DNA of 36,860 nt from Akkermansiaceae bacterium (GTDB taxonomy: Bacteria > Verrucomicrobiota > Verrucomicrobiia > Verrucomicrobiales > Akkermansiaceae), in assembly GCA_903875675.1 (NCBI GenBank), contig CAIQXC010000431.1, forward strand, positions 1 to 36,860, read 5' to 3'. Below are positions 1,631-32,327 of the stretch, piece by piece. Within the stretch, counting starts at the first letter, position 1. Each line of letters starts with the position of its first letter. The position numbers and the translations under genes were made by a program. Below the pieces are notes generated by a model. It ran no database searches. It was not told the DNA's origin and saw nothing but the letters and a program-made list of their open reading frames with translations.

Positions 1631-1962
1631 ATAGAGGCCGCAAGATCTATACCCGGATGCTGGAAAGCGCCGACCGCATGGCCGCGATCCGCGCCCTGGG
1701 CAATACAGATATCTACGCGCTTGTCCGGCATATCTTCCGCCAGGAGTTGGAGGCAACGGATACCGGTAGTCTGATTTGCGGCATGGCGCATTGCGTTGTC
1801 ATGGAGCGCTTCCTGGCAAGGGAGGCGAAAGACGACAAGACCCAAGACTTCAAGACGCAAGACGCAAGAGAAGAGGCTAGAGAAGATGTAAGAGAAGAGG
1901 CTAGAGTAGAGCAAGCGGCCAGAGATTGCGCGGGTGCCATGGGGGAAGGATATCTGCCATGA
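1627..1962 (+). CDS. Hypothetical phage protein with low-complexity charged C-terminus
   Basis: ATGA overlap with the endolysin stop; C-terminal DDKTQDFKTQDAREEAREDVREEARVEQ repeats. Confidence 0.6.
   Translation: MNRGRKIYTRMLESADRMAAIRALGNTDIYALVRHIFRQELEATDTGSLICGMAHCVVMERFLAREAKDDKTQDFKTQDAREEAREDVREEARVEQAARDCAGAMGEGYLP
1843..1875 (+). repeat. 33-bp dispersed repeat, copy 1 (within a phage CDS)
   Basis: caagacttcaagacgcaagacgcaagagaagag; matches the reverse complement of 30098-30130 with 2 mismatches. Confidence 0.75.
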
Positions 1963-2481: not shown

Positions 2482-2754
2482 ATGCCACACTCACCCGCTA
2501 CCCCCATTGCCCTGATCCGCCGCCGCCTGCGTGAAGTGCTGGCCATGGCCCCCGGCTACGGCAAGACGGAAGCCATGTTGCTGGAGTTTGCCAACGAACT
2601 CAACGGCGGCGGCATTTCGCTCCAGGAACTGCGCGACGCCTGCGAGTGGAATCACCTCCAAGGCTACATCCGCAGCGAGGATGACGAGGATAGCGGCCAG
2701 ACTCTCTGGTTTATCTCCAAGGCCGGCATCGCCAAACAAAAATCCCTCACGTGA
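2482..2754 (+). CDS. Hypothetical small phage protein (Mu gp26 position)
   Basis: 90-aa ORF in tight operonic array directly upstream of the gp27-like gene. Confidence 0.5.
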   Translation: MPHSPATPIALIRRRLREVLAMAPGYGKTEAMLLEFANELNGGGISLQELRDACEWNHLQGYIRSEDDEDSGQTLWFISKAGIAKQKSLT

Positions 2755-3372
2755 ATGGCCACCACCAAAAACCAGCGGCCCTTGCCAACGCGCATCCCCA
2801 AACCGCGCTCGGACGCCAAGCTCAAGAACCTGGCGCGTGTCGATCAGGATACGCTGTGGGTGCTGATGCATCCCACCGATTCCACGGTTCCAGCTTACTC
2901 GCTGGAAGACGCCAGGGTTTACATGCTGGAAGCACATGGGCTCTCCGTGGTGGCTTCCTCGCTCTCGCAATGGCAATCCTGGTATGCGCTCAACCTGCGC
3001 ATGGAAGCGCGGGAAGATGCCGCGGAGCAACTCAAAGCGGAGATGGCCCGCAATCCTCACAACTCAGAGGAAGCCATCCGCCAGGCCGGCCAGCGGCTGT
3101 TCATGACCGAGGGGATCATCGAGCGCAATTTCCGCCAGTTCTCCGGCGCGGCCAAGATGACCGACGAAATAACCAAACTCCAACAGGCGGAAAAGAAGAT
3201 CTCCTTGCTCAAGAAGGCGGGGGACCGCGACGAGCGCAAGCTGCGGCTGCTGGAAGACAAGGCGGCGGAAGCCAAGGCGGTCTTATTGACCTTGACCAGC
3301 AATGCCAAAAGCCGGGGTGGACTCACCCCGGAAACCCTCGCCGAAATCGAACGCGCAGCGGGTCTCCTCTAA
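2755..3372 (+). CDS. Mu gp27-like protein (DUF3486-type; small terminase candidate)
   Basis: 205-aa helical/coiled protein directly upstream of the large terminase; N-terminal HTH-like region; order as in Mu. Confidence 0.65.
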   Translation: MATTKNQRPLPTRIPKPRSDAKLKNLARVDQDTLWVLMHPTDSTVPAYSLEDARVYMLEAHGLSVVASSLSQWQSWYALNLRMEAREDAAEQLKAEMARNPHNSEEAIRQAGQRLFMTEGIIERNFRQFSGAAKMTDEITKLQQAEKKISLLKKAGDRDERKLRLLEDKAAEAKAVLLTLTSNAKSRGGLTPETLAEIERAAGLL

Positions 3373-3380
3373 CTTTCATA

Positions 3381-3399
3381 CTTCATCCTTTACCCTTCA
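3381..3399 (+). repeat. CCTTCAY-type pyrimidine tract (copy A)
   Basis: cttcatcctttacccttca, related to 9119-9144 and 12988-13013. Confidence 0.5.
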
Positions 3400-3413
3400 T
3401 ACTTTCTTCCCAA

Positions 3414-4808
3414 GTGGGCAACGCCAAAAACATCCCGGTTAAAAACACCTTGCTGCTGCCCTATCAGGCGGCTTGGGTGCGGGATACCTCGCGGCTCAAG
3501 ATCGCCGAGAAAAGCCGCCAAATCGGCTGGACCTGGGCGAGTGGTTACGGCCTAGTTAGCCGCAAGAGTTTGCGCGATGCCAAGCTCGATGCCTGGGTCT
3601 CGTCCCGCGATGAAATCCAGGCCCGGCTGTTTCTCGAAGACTGCAAGGCCTTTGCTAAGCTGCTCAATACCGCCGCCAAGGACCTCGGCGAGCAAGTCAT
3701 CGACGATAAGGGCAACACCGCCTTCGTGCTCAGCCTGGCCAATGGCCTGCGCATCCACAGCATGAGCTCCAACCCGGATGCCCAAGCGGGCAAGCGCGGC
3801 GACCGCGACCTGGACGAGTTCGCCCTGCATCCCGATCCGCGCAAGTTGTATGCCATCGCCTACCCCGGTATCACCTGGGGCGGCATCCTGGAAATCTTCT
3901 CCACCCACCGCGGTAGCGCCAATTACTTCAACGGCCTGATCCGAGAGATCAAGGAAAAGGGCAACCCCAAGGGCTGGTCGCTGCATCGGGTCACCCTTCA
4001 AGATGCACTCGATCAGGGCTTCCTCTACAAACTGCAAAGCAAGCTCCCTGCCGATGACGAGCGCCAGGCAATGGATGAGGCGGCTTACTTCGACTTCATC
4101 CGCAAGGGTGCCCCGGATGAAGAAAGCTTCCTGCAAGAGTATATGTGCATCCCGGCGGATGATGCTGCCGCATTCATCGAGTGGGGACTCATCGACGCTT
4201 GTTGCACCGCTGAGGGCGAGGCCTGGGAACTCACCCTTGAGCAGGCCGCCTCTCGCGAAATCTACGGCGGCCTGGATATTGGCCGCCACCACGACCTCAC
4301 CAGCTTCACGGCGGTGGAGAAAGTCGCCGGCCTGCGCCCCGTGCGCAAACGCATCGACCTGCAAGGCCTGCCATTCTCCCAACAAGAAGCGATCCTCTAT
4401 CCGTGGTTCGAGGTCTGCAAGCGGGTGTGCATCGACGCCACCGGCCTCGGCATGCAATTCGCCGAGCGCGGCCAGGAACGCTTTGGCAAGTACAAGATCG
4501 AGCCGATCACCTTCACCGGCGGCATGAAGGAAGAGCTGGCCTATCCGGTGCGAATGGCCTTTGAGGACCGCAGCGTACGCATCCCCTTCACAGACGACAA
4601 ACTCAAGACCGATATCCGCGCCATCCGCAAGGAAGTCACTGCCTCGGGCAACGTGCGCTTCGCCGCTGACCGTGGCCAGAATGGTCACGCCGACCGGTTC
4701 TGGGGCGTCGCCCTGGCATTGCATGCCGCCAAGTCGGCAGGGGGGTTCACCTTCACCCCCCGCCCGGCAGGGCGCCGCAGCCGAAAGACGGAAAGGAGCG
4801 TGCAATGA
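3414..4808 (+). CDS. Large terminase, Mu gp28-like
   Basis: GTG start at 3414 proposed (VGNAKNIPVKNTLLLPYQAAWVRDTSRLKIAEKSRQIGWTWASGYG). Features: Walker-A-like region, nuclease-like IYGGLDIGRHHDLT, and VCIDATGLGMQFAE. Confidence 0.85.
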   Translation: MGNAKNIPVKNTLLLPYQAAWVRDTSRLKIAEKSRQIGWTWASGYGLVSRKSLRDAKLDAWVSSRDEIQARLFLEDCKAFAKLLNTAAKDLGEQVIDDKGNTAFVLSLANGLRIHSMSSNPDAQAGKRGDRDLDEFALHPDPRKLYAIAYPGITWGGILEIFSTHRGSANYFNGLIREIKEKGNPKGWSLHRVTLQDALDQGFLYKLQSKLPADDERQAMDEAAYFDFIRKGAPDEESFLQEYMCIPADDAAAFIEWGLIDACCTAEGEAWELTLEQAASREIYGGLDIGRHHDLTSFTAVEKVAGLRPVRKRIDLQGLPFSQQEAILYPWFEVCKRVCIDATGLGMQFAERGQERFGKYKIEPITFTGGMKEELAYPVRMAFEDRSVRIPFTDDKLKTDIRAIRKEVTASGNVRFAADRGQNGHADRFWGVALALHAAKSAGGFTFTPRPAGRRSRKTERSVQ

Positions 4809-8081: not shown

Positions 8082-8136
8082 TCCCGCCAGGAATCATCTA
8101 TCTACAATCATTTATCAACAATCATCGATCTAATAT

Positions 8137-9073: not shown

Positions 9074-9113
9074 GAGGTCGGACAGGTCAGACCTGTCTGA
9101 CTTGTCCGACCTC
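9074..9113 (+). repeat. Long hairpin after major capsid gene
   Basis: gaggtcggacaggtcagac / ct / gtctgacttgtccgacctc: 19-bp arms, 2-nt loop, single G-U in RNA. Confidence 0.85.
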
Positions 9114-9118
9114 TCTCT

Positions 9119-9144
9119 CTTCATCCTTCAACCTTCTCCCTTCA
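9119..9144 (+). repeat. CCTTCAY-type pyrimidine tract (copy B)
   Basis: cttcatccttcaaccttctcccttca directly after the 9074-9113 hairpin. Confidence 0.6.
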
Positions 9145-9156
9145 ACCTTTCCCCCC

Positions 9157-9624: not shown

Positions 9625-9636
9625 TAAACAAGCTGT

Positions 9637-9725
9637 AACGCTGAAATGCTGAAATGCTAAAAGTGCTTCGCTCTCTTCCTCTTCTCTAATTTCAGATTTT
9701 CAGCGTTTCAGATTTTCAGCGTTTT
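9637..9725 (+). repeat. Structured spacer with tandem and inverted repeats
   Basis: Perfect 16-bp tandem (tttcagattttcagcg at 9690-9705 and 9706-9721); aacgctgaaa (9637-9646) is complementary to tttcagcgtt at 9698-9707 and 9714-9723. Confidence 0.85.
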
Positions 9726-12980: not shown

Positions 12981-12987
12981 GCCTTTC

Positions 12988-13013
12988 CTTCATCCTTCAC
13001 CCTTCACCCTTCA
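12988..13013 (+). repeat. CCTTCAY-type pyrimidine tract (copy C)
   Basis: cttcatccttcacccttcacccttca directly after the 12948-12980 hairpin. Confidence 0.65.
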
Positions 13014-13026
13014 TCCTTACTTCCAG

Positions 13027-26451: not shown

Positions 26452-27939
26452 ATGCAATTCACCTACCCGATGCTCACTGCCGATGAAGCTGCCGCCCTCG
26501 TCCAAGACGACGAAGTCATTGGCTTCAGCGGCTTCACTCCCGCCGGTGCCGCCAAAGTCATCCCCACCGCCATTGCCGCCAAAGCCCGCGTCGAGCATGA
26601 CGCCGGCCGCCCGTTCAAAGTAGGTGTCATCACCGGAGCCTCCACCGGCCCATCACTCGATGGCGAACTCGCCCGGGCCGATGCCATCAAGTTCCGCACG
26701 CCCTATCAGTCCGACAAAGACCTGCGCGCCAGCATCAACGCCGGCAAGACGCATTTCTTTGACATGCACCTGTCGCTGTTGCCTCAATACGTCCGCTACG
26801 GGTTCCTCGGTGAACTCGACTGGGCAATCGTCGAGGCCGCCGATGTATCAGTGGACGGCAAAATCCTGCTCACCACCAGCGTCGGCGCTGCCCCCACCTT
26901 CCTGTCCCAAGCCAAGCGCATCCTCATCGAGGTCAACAGCCGCCATCCCAAAGACTTGCTAGGCTTCCACGATATCTACGAACCCGAGTCCCCGCCCCAC
27001 CGCCGCCCCATCCCGATCTGCAATGCCGAGGACCGCATCGGCACCCAGCGAGTCTGGGTCGATCCTAAAAAGATCGTCGGCATCGTTGAGTCCAATCGTC
27101 AGGACGAGGTCAAGGAATTCACCCCGGTCACTGACGTCACCACCCGCATCGGCAGGCATGTAGCGGCGTTTCTAGCTGCGGAATTGCGCAACGGCCACAT
27201 TCCCAAAGGGTTTCTACCCATTCAGTCGGGCGTGGGCAATGTCGCCAACGCGGTGCTCGGTGCCATGGGTGAACATCCGGAGATCCCACGCTTCCAGATG
27301 TACACCGAGGTCATCCAGGATTCCGTCATCGACCTCATCAAACAAGACCGCTGCAGCTTCGTCAGCGGCGTCTCCCTCACCCTCAGCAATGCCGTGCTGC
27401 AAGGCGTTTATGATAACTTGGAAAGCTACCGCGGCCGCATGCTGCTGCGGCCCCAGGAAATTACGAACAACCCGGAAATCGTCCGTCGTATCGGCATCGT
27501 CTCGATCAACACCGCTCTAGAGGCTGATATCTTCGGCAATATCAATAGCACCCATGTGTTAGGCCAAAAGATGATGAATGGCATCGGTGGCTCCGGCGAC
27601 TTCACCCGCAACGCCTATATCTCAATTTTTACCTGTCCCTCCACTGCCAAAGGCGGCAGCATATCGGCCATCGTGCCGATGTGTTCACACATGGACCACA
27701 GCGAGCATTCCGTGCAGGTCCTCGTCACCGAGCATGGGGTGGCTGACCTGCGCGGCAAGGACCCCCGCGAACGCGCATCCGCCATCATCGGCAACTGCGT
27801 CGATCCATCCTACCGGGATCTGCTCTGGAACTACTTCAAACTCACGGAAAACGGCCACACCCCACAATCGTTCCGCTCCGCCTTCGCCTTCCACGAAGCC
27901 TTCCTTGAAAGTGGCGACATGCACCACACCCGCTTTTAG
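26452..27939 (+). CDS. Acetyl-CoA hydrolase/transferase family: propionyl-CoA (or acetate):succinate CoA-transferase
   Basis: 495 aa from ATG 26452; DEVIGFSGFTPAGAAKVIPTAIA, GVGNVANAVLGAM, NINSTHVLGQKMMNGIGGSGDFTRNAYISIF. Confidence 0.9.
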   Translation: MQFTYPMLTADEAAALVQDDEVIGFSGFTPAGAAKVIPTAIAAKARVEHDAGRPFKVGVITGASTGPSLDGELARADAIKFRTPYQSDKDLRASINAGKTHFFDMHLSLLPQYVRYGFLGELDWAIVEAADVSVDGKILLTTSVGAAPTFLSQAKRILIEVNSRHPKDLLGFHDIYEPESPPHRRPIPICNAEDRIGTQRVWVDPKKIVGIVESNRQDEVKEFTPVTDVTTRIGRHVAAFLAAELRNGHIPKGFLPIQSGVGNVANAVLGAMGEHPEIPRFQMYTEVIQDSVIDLIKQDRCSFVSGVSLTLSNAVLQGVYDNLESYRGRMLLRPQEITNNPEIVRRIGIVSINTALEADIFGNINSTHVLGQKMMNGIGGSGDFTRNAYISIFTCPSTAKGGSISAIVPMCSHMDHSEHSVQVLVTEHGVADLRGKDPRERASAIIGNCVDPSYRDLLWNYFKLTENGHTPQSFRSAFAFHEAFLESGDMHHTRF

Positions 27940-27955
27940 CCATTCCCCACATCTC

Positions 27956-30022
27956 ATGACATCCCCAGCGCACGCCGAACCCTTGCTCGCAGAATTTCCC
28001 GAACACACCTACGACCAGTGGCATCAAGCCGCCGAACAACTTCTCAAAGGTGCTTCATTCGAGAAACTCCTCGTTAGCAAAACTTACGAGAACATCACGA
28101 TCCAGCCGATCTATCGCAGCGAGGATATCGCCGGGTTCCCCCAGCGCCATCACCTCCCTGGCTCCGGCTCTCAGGTGCGCGCCAGTCAGCCCTCCGGCTT
28201 CCTTAAATCCGGTTGGGATATCTCTCAGGAACTCGTCACCCGCTGCCCCGCCAAGTTCAATAAAATCGCCCTCGAGGGCCTCCGCGGCGGCCAGTCCGAA
28301 TTGAACATCCCCATCACCCGTCGAGGCCTTCCGGCGACCCATGCCTCGTCCATCGGCCTCATCCTCAAGCACCTTTCATCCCTCAACACCGCCCTCACCG
28401 ACGTTGACCTCGGTGCCATCTCCACCTTCTGGCGCGCCGGCTCCGATACCATCCCCGTCGCCGCTCTGGTTTTCGCCGCAGCTCAACAGCGGGGCCTTCC
28501 CCTCGCCACCCTGCACGGCTGCTTCGAAAACGACCCCCTCGCCGATCTCGCCCGCCTCGGTAGCTTGGAGGCAGGTCTTGGCCTGCGCCTCGACCACCTC
28601 GCCGCACTCACCGGATTTGCCAGCACCGAGGCCCCGCACATCCAGACGATTGTCGTCCAAGGCGACGTCTATCACAATGGTGGTGCCTCTGCCACCCAGG
28701 AACTCGGCTACGCCATCGCCACCCTCGTCAGTTATATCGATGAATTGAAAAATCGCGGCATCCCCCCCGCCACCGCTTTCCAACACATCCGCCTGTGCCT
28801 GTCCGTCGGCTCGGACTATTTCATGGAAATCGCCAAACTGCGCGCCGCCCGCTGGCTCGTTAGCAAAGTTGCCGAGGCCTATGGCGTCTCCCATCCGGCC
28901 ATCCACATCCACGCCAGCACCTCGCGTTGGAATAAAACCACCTATGACGCCCACACCAACATGCTGCGCGTCACCGCCGAGGCGTTTGCCGCTGTGGTCG
29001 CCGGAGTGAACAGCCTCCACATCGGCCCCTACGACGAAGCGCTCGGTGGTGGCGACACGTTTTCCCGGCGCATTGCCCGCAATGTTCACATCATTCTGCG
29101 CGAGGAATGCGGGCTGGACCGGGTGATCGATCCGGCGGGTGGCTCTAACTACATCGAATGTCTCACCGACCAGGTTGCGGCAAAAAGTTGGACGATTTTC
29201 CAGGATGTCGATGCCAAGGGCGGCATGCTAAGCAACCTGGAAAACGGCAGCATTCAAGCGGCCGTGGCGGCAGTCTGCAACGCCAAGCTCCAAAACATCC
29301 GCCGCCGCAAAGACAAACTCGTCGGCTGCAACATGTATCCCGATCTCAAGGGCAAAAAACTCACTCCCGCAACCATCACCGCCCCCCACCCGCCAACCGC
29401 CTCCACCACCCCTTGCAGTTTCCAATTGGTGGCTAGCCCTGCCAGCCCATCCCTCCTCACCGAAGCCATCGCCGCCGCCCTCAACGGCACTTCCACCGCC
29501 ACCCTCGCCGCCGCCTGCCTCCCGACCGGTCCCCTCCCCGCCCTAACCATCACGCCTATCCCACAGCGCCGCGCCGCCGAAGAATACGAAGCGCTGCGCG
29601 ATGCAGCCACCACCTTCGCCCTAACCACCGGGACCCCTCCCGCCATCCTCCAACTCAACATCGGCCCCTCCGGCCGCTTCCGCTTGCGTGCCGACTGGAC
29701 CGCCTCATTCTTTGAGGCCGCCGGCTTCGCCGTGGACGGCAGCCGCGATTTTCCATCCATCGCCGAAGCCGTCCAAGCTGCCTCCGCCAGCAAGTCGGGC
29801 ATCGCCGTCATCACATCCGACGACGCCACCTATCTGGAGGCCGTGGTGCCCCTCGCCACCGCCGTCAAAGCCGCCCGAGCAGACATCACGTTGCTGGTCG
29901 CAGGCGCTCCCGGCGACAACGAAGCCGCTTGGCGTGCCGCCGGAGTGGACGACTTCGTCAATGTTCGATCTAACAATTACGAACTGAATCGTCAACTCCT
30001 CGCCAAGGCAGGAGTTCTCTAA
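27956..30022 (+). CDS. mutA: Methylmalonyl-CoA mutase small subunit
   Basis: From ATG 27956; MCM fold ([48 protein letters not shown]) with a degenerate C-terminal B12 domain lacking DxHxxG. Confidence 0.92.
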
Positions 30023-30097
30023 TCATCAAGACACAAGACAAGAATTCTCTGTTCCTTACACTTTTCACCAGCCACTAACCACTCCACCCGATGCTTG

Positions 30098-30130
30098 CTC
30101 TTCTCTTGCGTGTAGCGTCTTGAAGTCTTG
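30098..30130 (-). repeat. 33-bp dispersed repeat, copy 2 (mutA-mutB spacer, inverted)
   Basis: Reverse complement caagacttcaagacgctacacgcaagagaagag; 31/33 identical to 1843-1875. Confidence 0.75.
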
Positions 30131-30152
30131 CTTCCTTTCCTATTCCCCCGCC

Positions 30153-32327
30153 ATGAGCCGCCCGAATTTCTCCTCCATCTCCTACTCCGCCCCATCCTCC
30201 GACCTTAGCTACGCCGATTGGTCCCGGTCCCTGGAGGCAGAACTCGGCAAGCCTATCGATGAAATCGTTTGGGACACCATGGAAAAAATCCCGGTCAAAC
30301 CGCTCTACACCGAGCAGGATACCGCTGGCATGGAACACCTCAAATACCAGGCCGGCATCGCCCCGTTCCTGCGTGGTCCATACGCCACCATGTATTGCTT
30401 CCAACCGTGGACGATCCGCCAGTACGCCGGCTTCTCAACCGCCGAGGAAAGCAACGCATTCTATCGCCGCAACCTCGCCGCCGGCCAAAAAGGCCTCTCA
30501 GTCGCCTTCGACCTCGCCACCCACCGCGGCTATGACTCCGACCATCCGCGCGTCGTCGGGGACGTCGGCAAGGCCGGGGTGGCCATCGACTCGATCCTCG
30601 ATATGAAGGTCCTCTTCGACAGCATCCCGCTGGACAAGGTGTCCGTCTCAATGACCATGAACGGCGCGGTGTTGCCCATCCTTGCGTTTTACATCGTCAC
30701 CGCCCTCGAACAAGGAGCCACCTACGAACAACTCGCCGGCACCATCCAAAATGACATTCTCAAGGAGTACATGGTGCGCAACACCTATATCTATCCGCCC
30801 GGCCCGTCGATGAAGATCATCGCCGACATCTTCGAGTTCACCTCGCAGAAAATGCCCAAGTTCAACTCGATTTCCATCTCCGGCTATCACATGCAGGAAG
30901 CCGGTGCCACCGCCGACCTTGAAATGGCCTACACCCTCGCCGACGGCTGGGAATACCTCCGCACCGGCATCGCCGCCGGCATAGACATCGACGCCTTCGC
31001 CCCACGCCTGTCATTCTTCTGGGCCCAAGGGAAAAACCACTTCATGGAGGTGGCGAAAATGCGCGCTGCACGCGTGCTATGGGCCAAAATCGTCAAAACC
31101 TTCAACCCGAAAAACCCCAAGTCCCTCGCCCTGCGCACCCACTCACAGACGTCCGGTTGGAGCCTAACCGAACAGGACCCCTTCAACAACATCTCGCGCA
31201 CCTGCATCGAGGCCATGGCCGCCACTCTCGGCCACACCCAATCCCTTCACACCAACGCACTCGACGAAGCCATCGCCCTGCCCACCGATTTCTCCGCACG
31301 CATCGCACGCAACACCCAGATCTTCCTGCAAGATGAAACATCCATCTGCCGGGTCATCGACCCCTGGGGCGGTTCCTATTATCTTGAAGCCCTAACTGAC
31401 GCGCTGATCCACAAGGCTTGGGACCACATCATGGAAGCCCAACAACTCGGCGGCATGTCCAAGGCCGTCGAAGCCGGTATTCCCAAAATGCGCATCGAGG
31501 AAGCCTCCGCTCGCCGTCAGGCCCGCATCGACTCCGGCGAGGAAACCATCGTCGGCGTCAACAAATACCGCCTCGCCCAGGAAGCTCCCATCGATATCCT
31601 CGACGTGGACAATACCGCCGTTCGCCTCTCACAAATCGAGCGACTCCACAAACTCCGCGCCGAACGCGACGAAACTCGCTGCCAAGACACTCTAACGGCT
31701 CTTGGTGAATGCGCCGGCGGCGGCCCGGGCAACTTGCTCGAGCTGGCCATCGAGGCCGCCCAAGCGCGTGCCTCCCTCGGCGAAATCTCCGACGCCATGG
31801 AAAAACATTTCGGCCGATACAAGGCGGTCATCCGGACCATTTCAGGCGTTTATGGCAAGGAATTCAACAACCAAGGAGATATGTCAGACATCCCTGAACT
31901 CATCAAACAATTCGAGACACTCGAAGGCCGCCGCCCTCGCCTGATGGTCGCCAAAATGGGCCAGGACGGCCATGACCGCGGTGCCAAGGTGGTCTCCACC
32001 GCCTATGCCGATATGGGCTTTGATGTGGACATCGGCCCGCTGTTCCAGACGCCCGAAGAAACCGCCAAGCAGGCCGTTGAGAACGATGTTCACGTCGTTG
32101 CCATGAGTTCACTCGCCGCCGGCCATAAAACCCTGCTGCCCCAGCTCGTCGCCGCACTCAAACAACTCGGCCGCGAAGATATCATGGTCGTCTGCGGCGG
32201 CGTTATCCCCGCCCAGGACTATGACTTTCTCTATCAAAACGGCGCCGCCGCCATCTTCGGCCCCGGCACCGTCATCCCGGATTCCGCACGCAAAATCCTC
32301 AAGCTCCTGCTCCAACAACTCGAGTGA
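30153..32327 (+). CDS. mutB: Methylmalonyl-CoA mutase large subunit
   Basis: From ATG 30153; [74 protein letters not shown]12-binding [13 protein letters not shown]. Confidence 0.98.

Follow-up and report, generated by a model that had tools for sequence, protein, structure and literature searches.

The window analysed here is a stretch of 36,860 nucleotides from an Akkermansiaceae genome of 6.56 Mb (G000), which we compare with related genomes that are mostly MAGs. It contains prophage genes and, further on, two genes for subunits of methylmalonyl-CoA mutase. The features that the argument uses are the following.

980 to 1630, + strand: phage endolysin (VanY/M15-type), directly upstream of the tail gene and overlapping its ATG
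1627 to 1962, + strand: prophage gene (the tail gene) of 111 aa with the putatively captured array; its homologue in a G047 prophage has 71 aa
1829 to 1915, + strand: the whole repeat-derived stretch in this gene, a single arm without a complementary arm
1843 to 1875, + strand: the 33-mer, an arm-type unit inside the phage gene, CAAGACTTCAAGACGCAAGACGCAAGAGAAGAG
1959 to 2474, + strand: next phage gene, whose ATG overlaps the stop codon of the array-bearing gene
2751 to 4808, + strand: large terminase, 56-60% identical over ~65% of its length to those of Mu-like phages, e.g. Pseudomonas phage B3
9632 to 9724, no strand assigned: element of the same build with other arms, GCTGAAAT / TTTCAGCG, and loop AGTGCTTCGCTCTCTTCCTCTTCTC
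27578 to 30022, + strand: mutA-type methylmalonyl-CoA mutase subunit, upstream of the spacer
30024 to 30135, no strand assigned: complete spacer element of ~112 bp, made of a CAAGAC arm, a ~55-nt loop and a GTCTTG arm
about 30027 to 30041, + strand: left arm of the spacer element, CAAGACACAAGACAA
30098 to 30130, − strand: right arm of the spacer element, CAAGACTTCAAGACGCTACACGCAAGAGAAGAG
30153 to 32327, + strand: mutB-type methylmalonyl-CoA mutase subunit, downstream of the spacer

A sequence-only reading of the window had pointed to a 33-bp sequence shared, in inverted orientation, between the phage gene and the mutA-mutB spacer. The match is as it was described, with correct coordinates: 31 of 33 positions are identical between 1843-1875 (+) and 30098-30130 (−), leaving two mismatches, and the number of such matches expected from 100 dinucleotide shuffles is 0. 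The phage copy is indeed translated (in frame as ...DDKTQDFKTQDAREEAREDVREEAR... / KTQDFKTQDAREEAR within the 111-aa gene), and the host copy is untranslated, lying between the two mutase genes. The C-terminal location given to the phage copy needs adjustment, since the repeat, which begins around residue 66 of 111, is inside the protein's tail rather than at its extreme end.

The prophage gene and the mutase spacer

The array-bearing gene has the M15-type endolysin on one side and, on the other, a small gene followed by the terminase and a Mu-type portal (Portal_Mu, PF06074). The order endolysin, small genes, TerS, TerL, portal is as in B3 and, with a terminase this similar to those of B3-like phages, we take the carrier to be a Mu/B3-like prophage. 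Within the gene, period-7 CAAGACN units (1829-1869, by TRF) merge into a period-24 purine-rich repeat (1859-1915), and the whole phage copy, 1829-1915, has no stable single-strand fold and no palindrome. All three frames of the CAAGACN strand are free of stop codons, so that capture into a protein is easy.

Comparison with phage homologues had been proposed as a check on this tail, and the sole homologue found, in the G047 prophage, is without it. This protein is 55% identical to the window protein over aa 1-65 and ends at residue 71 (..RFMARGEGKGL*), at the start of the array; both genes overlap the next one by ATGA. Because the homologue stops where the array starts, the last ~40 residues of the window protein are best read as translated array, probably acquired by capture of a repeat. 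Whether the window phage gained the tail or the other phage lost it is judged from one homologue at 55% identity and from the behaviour of the family elsewhere, not from a third phage. A search of INPHARED returned no further homologues of the tail gene. We considered B3ORF26 (70 aa, same position in phage B3) as an outgroup and set it aside, as it belongs to phrog_6410, where the window protein has no match.

The prophage spacers of the window hold further degenerate period-7/8 arrays, at 8092-8132, 9109-9149, 9632-9724 and 12986-13018. An ATG follows directly after most of these; the sense strand of several is rich in pyrimidines, and there is no obvious Shine-Dalgarno sequence. The loop of the element at 9632-9724, AGTGCTTCGCTCTCTTCCTCTTCTC, resembles the loop of CAAGAC elements elsewhere.

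In the mutase spacer, the presence of a second, inverted arm at about 30027-30041 identifies 30098-30130 as the right arm of a hairpin-like element, although its single-strand folding is no better than that of shuffled sequence (z −0.5). This right arm is two bases off the family form, which G081 keeps. We compared the mutA-mutB spacer across 19 congeners and find that nearly every one has some array just before the start codon, with a heptamer that differs from genome to genome. G000 and G081 carry the CAAGAC element at the same place with different unit numbers, and the same spacer elsewhere contains GTTATNA (G089, G047, G035), CCATCTC (G095), TCTCAAA (G092), ATCCACA (G023) or CTGCTCA (G025). 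G019, which is 94-97% identical around the locus and the closest to G000 there, has a spacer of 18 bp from which the whole element, exactly the stretch 30024-30135, is missing; by parsimony, this absence would be a loss.

A dispersed heptamer family

To count the family we use the pattern CAAGACN{1,2}CAAGACN{1,2}CAAGA, with the reversed pattern as control. G000 has 65+41 = 106 matches and the control 0. The pattern is found in 33 of 79 relatives, and the number of matches per congener runs from 0 to 227 among the 49 genus members, many of which have none. When the phage 33-mer itself is compared with the fetched loci, it is matched at 33/33 in 3 places (the phage copy included), at 32/33 in 11 and at 31/33 in 25; more than 80 distinct places reach at least 29/33, and the reversed query finds none with at least 24/33. 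The mutA-mutB spacer of G081 (L215) and the locus L186 have the 33-mer without any mismatch. Since the phage 33-mer has matches at other loci that are as good or better, nothing sets the two copies in the window apart from other pairs in the family. The 33-mer belongs, as one arm, to a degenerate heptamer-array family (CAAGACN, occasionally CAAGACNN) in a freshwater verrucomicrobial lineage. It is thus a dispersed repeat, as had been proposed, scattered over G000 and its congeners and not confined to the two sites; the search of the host genome and its relatives returned many further places.

The arrays consist of head-to-tail units in which 7- and 8-nt lengths are mixed, and most sampled copies lie in spacers (coding status was taken from ORFs only). 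Among the matches listed in a scan of public genomes, the carriers are mainly Akkermansiaceae/Verrucomicrobia MAGs, together with the isolate Verrucomicrobium sp. BvORR106 and two Acidobacteriota MAGs. At L147 and L158, CAAGAC arrays lie in two MAGs labelled Acidobacteriota. Period-7/14 arrays number ~30 in 402 kb of array-rich genomes versus 3 in 220 kb from four single-contig congeners and G009, a comparison of densities that is indicative, part of the G000 sample having been picked for its arrays.

The arms have a preferred arrangement. Out of 233 distinct clusters, 112 show a CAAGAC array, a loop and a GTCTTG array in this order, and the reverse order occurs in 0/233. The loop is often 38 nt long, one common version being GAAGAGCAGATGCAGAAGCGCTGCGCTCTCTTCTC. 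Many copies, that of the phage among them, consist of one arm alone and have no palindrome. There is also a REP-like relative of ~95 bp (type 2), of the form CTAG-GAGGCTTCGCCTC-AGACC-(CAAGAC)n-...-TTTCAAGGNNTCTAG, which has the palindrome GAGGCTTCGCCTC and the 4-nt CTAG at both ends; written out more fully, it reads CTAGC-GAGGCTTCGCCTC-AGACC-CAAGAC units-...TTTGACCTAACGACAACA...TTTCAAGG..CTAG. Type 2 has 38 matches in G000 (e.g. C63:11098, C402:7307 and C761:15324), is present in 13/73 congeners, and is seen at L138, L190, L183, L303, other sites and L121, where the copies are in tandem. At L184 (~4183-4320) the left part of a type-2 element runs straight into a tRNA-Tyr-like 3' half (..ACTGTAAATCTGCTGGCTAACGCC..GGTTCGAATCC..CCACCA).

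Arrays come, go and change length between close relatives. Besides the mutA-mutB spacer, two sites have the element in some relatives and not in others, with a remnant in G019 at one of them; at L004 it is present in G000 and G019 and absent in G047. Unit number on one arm is 11 versus 3 between near-identical flanks (L164 vs L194), and it also differs between the copies at L005/L101. A size difference at L115/L129 was dropped, as it lies inside a coding gene that has no array there. The flanks of 215 clusters are no richer in direct repeats than random positions.

A second in-gene copy is that in the TatD-family nuclease gene of G000 (PF01026), which contains GTCTTGCGTCTTGCGTCTTCTAGTCTTGCGTCTTGCG in frame; the insert is absent in ~60 congeners, G019 included. 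The gain amounts to 66 bp and consists of a 37-bp array plus a 29-bp second copy of the flank (24/29 identical), a flank that is single in G019. The score of this flank repeat exceeds that of 20,000/20,000 shuffles and is reached by 1/20,000 real control pairs. Given the absence of flank-repeat enrichment over the 215 clusters, the TatD duplication is one event and not the rule. Arrays of the family are read into protein at least twice in G000, in the prophage gene and in the TatD gene. At the same TatD loop, G006:C306 (L341) carries GCGGCTGGAAGAACTGCGGCTGGAAGCCGCAGCTACGG twice as an unrelated repeat inserted in frame, which shows that insertions are tolerated in this loop.

Other coding sequences show related features. 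A WbuB-like glycosyltransferase of G035 (L161/L399, contig C162) has array-derived KTQDNKTQDARE segments in its loops, including KTQDNKTQDAREE, and its homologues at L400-L406 each have, congener by congener, a different repeat-derived low-complexity loop insert. At L204 (~5058) a CAAGAC array on the antisense strand is in frame in a long ORF resembling an N6-adenine methylase/restriction-type protein. Isoleucyl-tRNA synthetase at L130 was a candidate for a third gene insertion and was rejected: the segment is also present, with ordinary divergence, in G035, G089 and G006, and its CAAGAC-like match is due to chance.

The claim of the sequence-only reading that the repeat enters both genes and spacers is supported by the phage gene, by the TatD gene (polarised by ~60 congeners) and by spacer copies that are present or absent among close relatives. 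Its term 'mobile-like' holds for the gains and losses, which are real; with no transposase link at the 24 Y1 loci sampled and no general target duplication over 215 clusters, mobility is shown in part and active transposition is not shown.

How the arrays may arise and spread

The reading that we favour, with a probability of about 0.7, is that of a lineage-specific long simple-sequence repeat that acts like a short interspersed element, is propagated by slippage and ectopic copying, and has had one of its arms captured by a prophage gene. Arrays would lengthen and shorten through replication slippage of 7-nt units, new sites would be seeded by ectopic recombination or template switching among the many near-identical arrays, and some copies may ride on the REP-like carrier elements. 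In the prophage, one arm would have inserted downstream of a short phage gene and ahead of the following start codon. As the CAAGACN strand is stop-free in every frame, the upstream reading frame could run through it, giving the protein a new charged tail of ~40 residues rich in K/E/R/D. Slippage together with ectopic copying explains most of the picture, including the observed gains and losses. Against slippage alone stand the exact 33-mers found across species and the common loop cores, which look more like the copying of a defined element.

We regard it as unlikely that the family is a miniature element of the REP/REPIN kind, with the heptamer arrays as cargo or arms, which a RAYT or an IS200/IS605-type Y1 transposase moves. 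Y1_Tnp genes (PF01797) are present in 72/73 congeners, with 10 such genes in G000, and the type-2 relative, with its palindrome, CTAG ends, tandem copy and spread over G000 and 13/73 congeners, also fits. The number of arrays correlates weakly with the number of Y1 genes (rho 0.40, p 0.005), but the correlation with genome size is nearly as strong (rho 0.32) and array-free genomes carry Y1 genes too. At 24 sampled Y1 loci neither a type-2 palindrome nor a CAAGAC (type-1) element adjoins the gene; a single CAAGAC match of 2 units stands at one locus. Many copies, moreover, are palindrome-free solo arms like that of the phage, and there is no general target duplication.

Somewhat less probable still is that selection and not mobility is at work, with functional leaders or spacers (pyrimidine-rich 5' leaders free of a Shine-Dalgarno sequence, or regulator-binding sites) arising repeatedly in place. 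Almost every congener has an array, each with a different heptamer, just before the start codon in the mutA-mutB spacer; three phage spacers of the window have pyrimidine-rich arrays beside an ATG; and the TAACTGA repeats of Beggiatoaceae have been interpreted likewise (PMC4679880). This does not fit the copies inside the phage and TatD genes, which have no leader role, nor the orthologous spacers of close relatives that are without an array, and the exact sequence common to unrelated loci calls for copying. Some copies may be retained because they serve as leaders or regulatory spacers; the gene-internal copies are left unexplained by this.

A more speculative idea, which we hold to be unlikely, is that array-rich verrucomicrobia possess a dedicated activity that writes or moves repeats, for example a polymerase that carries a template or repair synthesis acting on staggered breaks, and that it inserts short lineage-specific heptamer runs at chromosomal breaks. 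If it were true, such an activity would account for long target duplications of the 29-bp TatD type, for the replacement of one heptamer word by another at a single spacer, and for new tails and loops built into phage and host proteins.

Two further explanations concern the pair of copies in the window. A single recombination that moved the stretch straight from the host mutA-mutB spacer into the phage, or the other way round, is very improbable: the 31/33 identity that suggests such an exchange is equalled or bettered elsewhere (the mutA-mutB arm of G081 has 33/33, that of G000 just 31/33), and the identity ends at the edges of the repeat. That a low-complexity K/E/R-rich coding tail merely came to resemble a simple-sequence spacer is next to impossible, for all its purine-rich low complexity and its stop-free forward frames, given 0 matches expected in shuffles, 0 in the reversed-pattern controls and a homologue without the tail.

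In these Verrucomicrobia slippage can be tested against insertion, since there are closely related genomes that differ by gains and losses, a clean insertion into a gene accompanied by a 29-bp duplication, and a phage copy made into protein. Array capture would also be a simple way for phage proteins to acquire charged tails.

Relation to known repeats

The closest known kind is the heptameric long simple-sequence repeats (LSSR), of which the cyanobacterial STRR, also heptamer repeats, are an example. The CAAGAC family has the corresponding features, namely head-to-tail 7-nt units, many dispersed and mainly intergenic copies, and variation in unit number. In most of the bacterial genomes examined, heptamers are reported to outnumber every other class of long simple repeat. 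Heptanucleotide repeats in general have been attributed to slippage that favours 7-nt units, and no mechanism is evident for how they spread (PMC4679880). As with the TAACTGA arrays of Beggiatoaceae (PMC4679880), the units are degenerate, and copies often lie just before start codons, sometimes in ORFs, with a patchy distribution and close relatives whose spacers are without them. Differently from these known heptamer repeats, many CAAGAC copies are convergent arm-loop-arm units with conserved loops, several heptamer words substitute for one another at one spacer across the genus, and there are documented cases of a prophage gene with an array and of a host gene with a polarised gain in frame.

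The GGGAATC / GGGGA(C/T)T heptamers of Xanthomonas and Nostoc (PMC4692102) similarly form more than 100 arrays per genome with variable unit number and some inverted pairs, and they showed no association with mobile elements in that study; CAAGAC differs from them in having no G-quadruplex potential and in its gene capture and hairpin cores. Geobacter metallireducens has multicopy heptanucleotide elements made of four heptamers (GGGACCG), dispersed between and within genes, which differ in heptamer and lineage and for which we know of no prophage capture (PMC2700814). Borg tandem repeats (PMC9879509) are likewise found in spacers and ORFs of an extrachromosomal element, evolve fast, and create new disordered protein segments. 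They are perfect, with ORF units divisible by three, whereas the units here are 7-8 nt and degenerate, so that the encoded tail is loosely periodic.

REP/GTAG palindromes with their RAYTs (PMC3733652), in which Opitutus terrae, also of the Verrucomicrobia, is rich as regards GTAG REPs, are comparable as short dispersed elements, some of them in genes, and the type-2 relative shares the palindrome and has CTAG ends. The phage copy differs in lacking a palindrome, and the type-2 tag is CTAG, not GTAG/CGTC (PMC3733652). No RAYT/Y1 gene flanked by the repeats was seen among the 24 Y1 loci sampled. The short target-site duplication that marks MITEs and insertion sequences is not apparent as any excess of flanking direct repeats over the 215 clusters, and usual MITE duplications are shorter than the 29 bp of the TatD copy. 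We found no account of heptamer arrays in Verrucomicrobia in the open-access full-text literature. Judged from sequence comparison, the features that appear to be new here are the lineage, the build of arm, loop and arm, the replacement of heptamer words by one another at a single spacer, and the capture of arrays by genes in both a prophage and its host.
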